From: Sulfurimonas sp.
Lineage (GTDB): Bacteria > Campylobacterota > Campylobacteria > Campylobacterales > Sulfurimonadaceae
Assembly: GCA_030654155.1 (NCBI GenBank)
Contig: JAURYA010000048.1
Span: 1 to 46,243, forward strand
Length of the DNA: 46,243 nucleotides
Direction: 5' to 3'
Part shown: one piece after another, positions 42,210-42,848 of the stretch
Position numbering within the stretch: position 1 is the first letter of the stretch
Layout of the letters: each line of letters starts with the position of its first letter
Notes under the pieces: generated by a model
What the model was told of the DNA's origin: nothing
The model's database searches: none
Seen by the model: the letters and a program-made list of their open reading frames with translations, nothing else
Made by a program: the position numbers and the translations under genes

Positions 42210-42491
42210 TTATTCACTTTGTGATAAAATCGCACCCATTAGCTCGATATATAAGCTTTTCGCATAATTATCGACTTCATCTCTGTTTGAAATCATATAG
42301 TTTTGAATTTCTCTGTCCATATCTTGGTTAAATTTATCTGCCATCATAAGCTCAATTGCCGCAGTTCTGTCAATAAATTTTTGCAACTCATGCCTAACAA
42401 CATCATTATTGGCATTAAATATAACATCCATCAATTTGCTCTTAGGAGAACCCATAAATATATCATCTTCATCTTCAAAAAGTCCGTACAT
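42210..42491 (-). CDS. DUF2018 family protein (HP0242-like)
   Basis: MYGLFEDEDDIFMGSPKSKLMDVIFNANNDVVRHELQKFIDRTAAIELM; start moved to 42491 (AAAGGA upstream) because the ORF-track start at 42524 reads into a terminal inverted repeat. Confidence 0.75.
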   Translation of the reverse strand: MYGLFEDEDDIFMGSPKSKLMDVIFNANNDVVRHELQKFIDRTAAIELMMADKFNQDMDREIQNYMISNRDEVDNYAKSLYIELMGAILSQSE

Positions 42492-42507
42492 TCCACATCC
42501 TTTAATT

Positions 42508-42771
42508 ATACCAAATGCCACCAACTCTCTATATGCTAAACGATTTTAGTGTATGTCGATGCGAGGCGTAACTTTGAAGTAGCTACTAGTAGCTTCAAGA
42601 AGTTGTAACGACACAGTGGCGTACAATACAATCGCCCTACGGGTAAAAAAGAAGCTATCCTCTACTTCGTTGTATCTTTTTGGATTAGCCCTGCTAGTCC
42701 TGCAAAAATACGCCTCGTAGCTAATAACTTCTTTTTTATTTATCGCATAGAGAGTTGGTGGCATTTGGTAT
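42508..42771. mobile_element. MITE-like element with 25-bp perfect terminal inverted repeats and possible 3-bp TTA target duplication
   Basis: ATACCAAATGCCACCAACTCTCTAT (42508-42532) is the exact reverse complement of 42747-42771; TTA at 42506-42508 and 42771-42773; several nested internal inverted repeats. Confidence 0.75.
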
Positions 42772-42820
42772 TAAATATTGCGGCGATTATAACATCACTA
42801 TTGTAACAATCGCTTAACGC

Positions 42821-42848
42821 TTGACATTAAGTCATAATTTTCTATAAT
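42821..42848 (+). promoter_or_regulatory. Consensus sigma70 promoter: TTGACA - 16 bp - TATAAT
   Basis: TTGACA 42821-42826, TATAAT 42843-42848, 6 nt before ATG 42855. Confidence 0.75.

Follow-up and report, generated by a model that had tools for sequence, protein, structure and literature searches.

Between a DUF2018 gene and a divergently transcribed FAD oxidoreductase gene of Sulfurimonas sp. lies a stretch of DNA that begins and ends with the same sequence in opposite orientation, and the question raised by this locus is whether it represents a mobile element or a fixed feature of the intergenic region, and what its inside may be for. Within the window (the whole 46,243-nt stretch that was analysed), a 25-nt repeat at 42508-42532 has a perfect inverted copy at 42747-42771, with TTA beside both of the TACC...GGTA ends, exactly as a reading made from the sequence alone had described. 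The inverted repeat reaches 33 nt at 91% identity, and shuffles of the window, with up to three mismatches allowed, gave a chance expectation of none. The sequence-only reading was likewise right that a real element is present and that it encodes no transposase (the sole internal open reading frame, of 72 aa, is mechanical), yet its size of 264 bp includes one base of the target-site duplication on each side: when TTA is taken as the duplication (left copy 42506-42508, right copy 42771-42773; assigned from the sequence, from the duplications of relatives with the same ends and, for the left copy, from the empty site in relatives), the element proper spans 42509-42770 and comprises 262 bp.

These 262 bp are built from five consecutive parts: (i) the left half of an outer stem, which is the terminal inverted repeat (TACCAAATGCCACCAACTCTCTAT..., 42509-42540, plus strand; its end class is that of an IS630-type insertion sequence), (ii) arm A, a predicted stem-loop of ∼94 nt carrying AGGC...AACG in the correct orientation (42541-42634, plus strand), (iii) a predicted central mini-hairpin, CCC-TAC-GGG (42635-42643), the CCC/GGG of which recurs in relatives, (iv) arm B, a stem-loop of ∼95 nt with the arm A motif on the opposite strand, that is, inverted (42644-42738, minus strand), and (v) the right half of the outer stem (42739-42770, minus strand). 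Both halves of the outer stem rest on the repeat, the predicted fold and the shuffles, and both arms are recognised by a covariance model (arm A at 42540-42635, plus strand, 69 bits; arm B at 42643-42739, minus strand, 74 bits). The predicted fold of the element lies far below that of shuffled sequence (z-scores of -9.4 and -10.2 for the two strands), and a search of the region against Rfam gave no match at E <= 1.

The element is an insertion. Using the DUF2018 protein, we located the orthologous DUF2018/FAD oxidoreductase intergenic region in genomes of the same genus and compared it with a 434-bp query in which the window's flanks were joined without the element. In genome G021 the alignment runs across the junction at 90% identity over the 434 bp with the element absent, and four further relatives exhibit the same empty site at 76-81% identity; a 3-base gap at the junction reflects three bases too many that were omitted from the joined query. 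The flanks agree with an insertion that duplicated three bases: of the 15 TACC-ended relatives in which both flanks are available, six are TTA/TTA, seven TAA/TAA, two unmatched and none a mixture of TTA and TAA, a concordance which, given six and seven, has a chance of 1 in 1716. IS630 elements usually duplicate TA, of which the TWA of the TACC class is a variation. A symmetric-shift scan did not detect a target duplication in the other end classes. Genome G109 carries five copies that are 98.2-99.6% identical at separate loci, while three identical copies with identical flanks in G159 probably arose by duplication of the region, so that we did not treat them as independent; the window's own genome (an assembly of 153 contigs, 95% complete) holds one full copy and one stem-only remnant. 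The view that this is a non-autonomous mobile element, that is, a MITE of what we call the TACC class, is thus supported by empty sites, by matching 3-bp duplications in 13 of 15 cases and by a full-length insertion sequence with the same ends; it would have fallen had there been a single copy, retained in the orthologous intergenic region of every relative, but at least five relatives are without the element.

The insertion sequence in question emerged from a search with the TACC end, which also led to insertion sequences in G068 with a DDE_3 transposase fragment. It is a full element of 1127 bp in locus L255, which is TACC-ended, has TTA on either side and contains HTH_33 and DDE_3 pieces of an IS630-type transposase broken by frameshifts. 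No relative of this transposase was found in the window's genome, the assembly of which is incomplete. Since the ends match those of an IS630-type insertion sequence, the window element was, judged by its sequence, most likely moved in trans by a transposase of that type. Two further autonomous elements match the ends of other MITE classes discussed below: an insertion sequence of ∼1063 bp with AAGTGCC-class ends, present in ten copies in G100 and encoding HTH_23/29 and DDE_3, and one of 1254 bp with GGGCACC-class ends in G071, encoding a 342-aa transposase that is 79% identical to a DUF772 (IS5-type) fragment and bordered left and right by TTAA, a sequence that would blend into the ends. The MITE ends are hence matched by three or more autonomous elements, which represent two transposase types (two IS630-like, one IS5-like); their terminal inverted repeats are nearly identical to those of the corresponding MITE classes in Sulfurimonas but, unlike the MITEs, they encode a transposase and lack the arm core. 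An ISAs1-type element at L234 was considered as a source and rejected, being an unrelated insertion within an element copy: at 345-1925 of this locus (G110), the right end of the copy is broken by an ISAs1-type insertion sequence (DDE_Tnp_1_assoc) with a ATATCTTTACT duplication.

Relatives of the element occur across the Campylobacterota. The conserved head of the arm, with one mismatch allowed, is found in 41 of 100 genomes of the same genus (reversed control pattern: none), and an exact scan of 84,980 species yielded at least 120 stretches, which among the matches listed are all from Campylobacterota and mostly from Sulfurimonas. With a covariance model of one arm the count rises to 60 of the 100 genomes of the genus, and across the phylum the model hits 29 of 249 genomes, representing 14 of the 55 Campylobacterota genera sampled; other species carry up to 34 arms per genome. 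Most of the distant copies that were opened have the same layout, with further end classes. No match to the element was found in phages, plasmids or viral contigs.

The layout itself is nearly invariant. We extracted 137 distinct elements, 128 of which are near full length (defined as 255-290 bp; nearly all measure 258-282 bp and most 263-274 bp), and in 125 of these the helices adjoin almost without intervening bases, in the order outer stem, arm A, central hairpin (nine bases) and arm B, with commonest lengths of 33, 96, 9 and 96. The layout so predicted is a tight four-way junction in which arm B is homologous to arm A but inverted, and the centre is a CCC-NNN-GGG mini-hairpin, with CCC/GGG present in 108 of the 125 relatives. 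Minimum-energy folds give the four-way junction for most copies; some fold otherwise. Two arms are usual, yet not strictly required, because one-arm derivatives exist at several places; stem-only derivatives are known as well. The remnant in the window's own genome is of the latter kind (G000:C95:5300-5358, equivalent to L002 1494-1552): it consists of a TACC end, a short loop and a GGTG end without arms, and has an lptF/G-like permease gene on one side and a lysA-like gene on the other.

Whether the arms matter as folded strands or merely as repeated DNA can be read from how they vary. In a covariation set of 32 diverse arms, less than 70% alike, 95.8% of the cells pair and 32 of 34 pairs have changed on both sides; the covariation score is 0.85, compared with 0.23 for shuffled and 0.12-0.16 for slid alignments, the latter comparison being to some extent biased in our favour, since the arms were aligned by sequence and the structure was predicted from that alignment. 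A test independent of any folding program locates the arms by position, reverse-complements arm B but not arm A, and counts mismatches by kind in ungapped stems. In the inner stem (pairs 12-18) of 67 non-redundant arms, 94 G.T and no A.C combinations are found, compared with 84 and 31 when partners are shuffled, and the upper arm stem has 28 against 2. By contrast, the outer arm pairs 1-11 show 13 G.T versus 12 A.C, and the outer stem of the element 47 versus 37. When the non-redundant arms are tallied separately, G.T exceeds A.C by 65 to 0 in arm A and by 63 to 4 in arm B. The shift at arm pairs 11/12 is abrupt, from symmetric mismatches (1-11) to purely G.T (12-18); position 16 is G.T in 35 of the 67 arms.

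There is thus strong support for the view that the inner ∼70 nt of each arm are maintained for the way in which a single strand folds, one strand in the case of arm A and the opposite one in that of arm B, because in double-stranded DNA a G.T of one strand is the A.C of its complement and no function could tell the two apart. A strand-wide mutation bias is excluded by the opposite results for the two arms of one element. Conversely, the sharp change between pairs 11 and 12 groups the bases of the arms with the outer stem: both behave as DNA duplex repeats. Two reservations apply: the G.T bias alone does not separate RNA from single-stranded DNA, which is not excluded, and the unbiased outer 11 pairs are unlike what a simple whole-arm RNA hairpin would predict, for which we have no good explanation to offer. 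Inside the arm, AGGC and AACG are invariant in the 32 diverse arms, an apparent invariance inflated by the choice of these arms partly for a loose form of the motif; the motif is missing in ∼15% of arms, in particular in one arm of the GGGCACC class. In three members of that class (L043, L083 3266-3533 and L025), one arm has an inner motif of the GATTGTGCAAAAC...GTTTTGTGCAAGATTG type in place of AGGC...AACG. Arm positions 19-20 are mostly G.A/A.G, resembling non-canonical internal loops of RNA. A reading of the arm as an integron attC site was rejected, AAC standing opposite GGC with no GTT partner in the arm consensus, and a K-turn reading of the internal loop was dropped on the same consensus.

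These tallies bear on a first alternative, according to which the element is an ordinary MITE without any function as RNA, its fold arising merely because inverted repeats are nested within one another and template switching in the DNA keeps them perfect. Symmetric mismatches in the outer stem and the outer 11 arm pairs are just what duplex DNA or palindrome correction leads one to expect, and transcripts of MITEs are generally said to fold stably (PMC10969869). This alternative remains unlikely, however, because the 94 to 0 ratio of the inner arms falls on opposite strands for the two arms, a mutation bias on one strand cannot yield opposite biases a few tens of bases apart, and the AGGC/AACG of the internal loop does not vary among the 32 diverse arms.

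What a folded strand might do depends on where the element sits. The DUF2018 gene (42210-42494, minus strand; identified as an open reading frame and by protein search) is followed, on the same strand and closely packed, by ispB-like, hemA-like and proS-like genes. An extended -10 of the inferred DUF2018 promoter, TGTTATAATC, lies at 42785-42794 on the minus strand, and is conserved in the empty-site relatives as TGNTATAAT ∼35-45 nt before the DUF2018 ATG. The element starts ∼15 nt downstream of this extended -10, so that it should belong to the transcribed leader of DUF2018, just past the inferred transcription start, and perhaps also to that of the ispB-like, hemA-like and proS-like genes. 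The consensus promoter of the FAD oxidoreductase gene (TTGACA-16-TATAAT) lies outside the element at 42821-42848 on the plus strand. Both predicted promoters are therefore on the right side of the element (42785-42848), and not to either side of it as the sequence-only reading had it; the gap of 16 nt which it gave to the DUF2018 start is in fact 13-14 nt to the ATG (42494), whereas its ∼84 nt to the FAD oxidoreductase gene holds roughly, the exact gap being 83 nt (start 42855).

This position weighs on the possibility that the element is a two-way terminator or insulator, each arm stopping the transcription that enters from its own side. Oriented arms are indeed T-rich on the 3' side (∼50% T) and A-rich on the 5' side, and terminator-like motifs are known in other MITEs (PMC10969869). 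However, a simple scan found no GC-rich hairpin followed by a T run within the element, the stem beside the T-rich stretch is weak (rich in G.U), and the window copy lies in what is inferred to be the leader of the genes packed behind DUF2018, the hemA-like and proS-like ones among them, where an efficient terminator would be costly unless other promoters exist. Although this is a single case, the cost of full termination before these genes favours read-through or buffering over termination, provided that these genes have no promoter of their own downstream of the element; altogether, we consider the terminator reading decidedly improbable.

Single-stranded DNA, which would likewise favour G.T over A.C, is the basis of another alternative, namely that the arms are two inverted DNA hairpins recognised by a Y1 (RAYT-type) transposase. 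The architecture is certainly reminiscent of REPINs, which also comprise two inverted hairpins per unit, are dispersed and intergenic, and to which the strand-specific folds of the arms would be no stranger. The elements of the present family are, however, much longer than REPs (20-40 bp; PMC3733652), their ends and target duplications are those expected of DDE insertion sequences, and no Y1 match exists in the arm-rich genomes G112 (28 arms), G042 (18), G043/G113 (17) and G001/G060 (16). Moreover, no GTAG/CGTC tag is present at the base of the arm, which varies, the invariant AGGC/AACG lying inside it, and a REPIN-like mode of spread thus has very little in its favour.

Ordinary MITEs have ends as their conserved part, while the inside drifts; in the present family the core is the conserved part. 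The elements fall into TACC (16), AAGTGCC-like (53), GGGCACC (17), AACTGACC (9), TTGCCATCC (8), TTGAACC (8) and other ends (14), that is, at least six classes, three of which match different autonomous elements, and yet the core is common to them. A cross-shaped core found across the phylum is thus housed in MITEs of several end classes, the window element being one case. That unrelated MITE classes evolved similar crosses independently can be dismissed as hardly credible: the end classes do match different transposase types, but AGGC/AACG, the arm head GCAGGAGCTACTAGTAGCTTCAAG and the central CCC/GGG recur across classes, which is too much for convergence. Judged by eye and without a tree, the arm stems appear to follow the end class, and the exchange of ends is therefore probably old and not frequent.

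We thus favour, with a probability of roughly 60%, the reading that the window element is a TACC MITE in the inferred leader of DUF2018 which carries the phylum-wide core, and that the inner arms are single-strand folds acting, by inference, as RNA in cis. Of this reading, the insertion itself, at a TTA and with 3 bp duplicated in what is inferred to be the 5' leader of DUF2018, is demonstrated, and so is the shared layout of the core. The folded form of the arms would be RNA, an inference for which no expression data are at hand. Because the two arms are homologous but inverted, a polymerase arriving from either direction would transcribe a correctly oriented arm first, and this arm may then fold in the nascent transcript and act in cis, although no binding protein is known. 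The likeliest effect would be that transcription is let through, or that the impact of the insertion on neighbouring genes is buffered; such an effect would account for the benefit of one and the same module to MITEs that use different transposases. It is tempting to go further and to speculate that the core is a selfish module of two inverted structured RNA domains, spread through the phylum by MITEs with the ends of unrelated insertion sequences, which acts on the nascent transcript in either direction and thereby makes the insertion tolerated and the transposase interchangeable; this broader proposal is tentative, and we would not at present regard it as probable.

With bacterial MITEs in general (PMC10969869), for example QMITE2 of Coxiella, the family shares short, non-coding units, terminal inverted repeats, target duplication, ends in common with insertion sequences, AT-rich intergenic sites and foldable transcripts; it differs from them in its four-way-junction core of near-constant length, in the conservation of this core across the ends of different insertion sequences, and in the strand-specific wobble. 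A model for the inferred action of the arms is the put RNA of phage HK022, which folds while it is being transcribed and, in cis, keeps the polymerase from pausing and terminating (PMC9378689); it is a phage element without sequence relation to the arms, and the likeness is functional speculation only. We found no prior description of a family with a conserved cross-shaped, strand-specific core across transposase end classes, nor any paper on such a family in the Campylobacterota literature, subscription papers being outside our coverage. The bcr1-type repeats of Bacillus cereus have been reported to be foldable at the RNA level. These repeats (named in PMC6542083) are also mobile and intergenic, but belong to another phylum, and no report of several end classes was found for them.

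The inside is conserved over the phylum and across end classes, and the wobble pattern indicates that the core serves as a folded single strand. Should this fold operate at the RNA level, the element would be a mobile, direction-independent RNA device, which would explain how essential genes can bear an insertion in their leader without harm, and would offer a naturally occurring case in which to ask whether selfish DNA evolves parts that limit the harm it does. In practical terms, many intergenic regions of Sulfurimonas and its relatives risk being misread as plain spacer or as gene-specific regulatory leaders.

Some smaller observations concern the placement and decay of the elements. None of 72 elements examined for gene context lies inside an open reading frame; 32 are between divergent, 29 between tandem and 11 between convergent genes, which, set against background gaps (41 divergent, 69 tandem and 12 convergent, from naive gene calls), amounts to only a mild excess of divergent sites, on which no weight was placed. 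Palindromes of 32-60 bp that consist of ends only occur in several end classes (L246 370-401, L247 313-347, L147 at ∼2994 and G112:C18:23505-23562), those of L246 and L247 having TTA on both sides; either the whole core was lost repeatedly, or these palindromes are insertions in their own right. A lone arm without ends or partner, at L397 1501-1597 between two transporter genes, is the only match in its genome (G226), and is possibly a degenerate copy or a fixed RNA. Finally, in G042, G095 and G008 many contigs break off inside an element or within the ends of a matching insertion sequence, which indicates copies so alike that a draft assembly fails to separate them.
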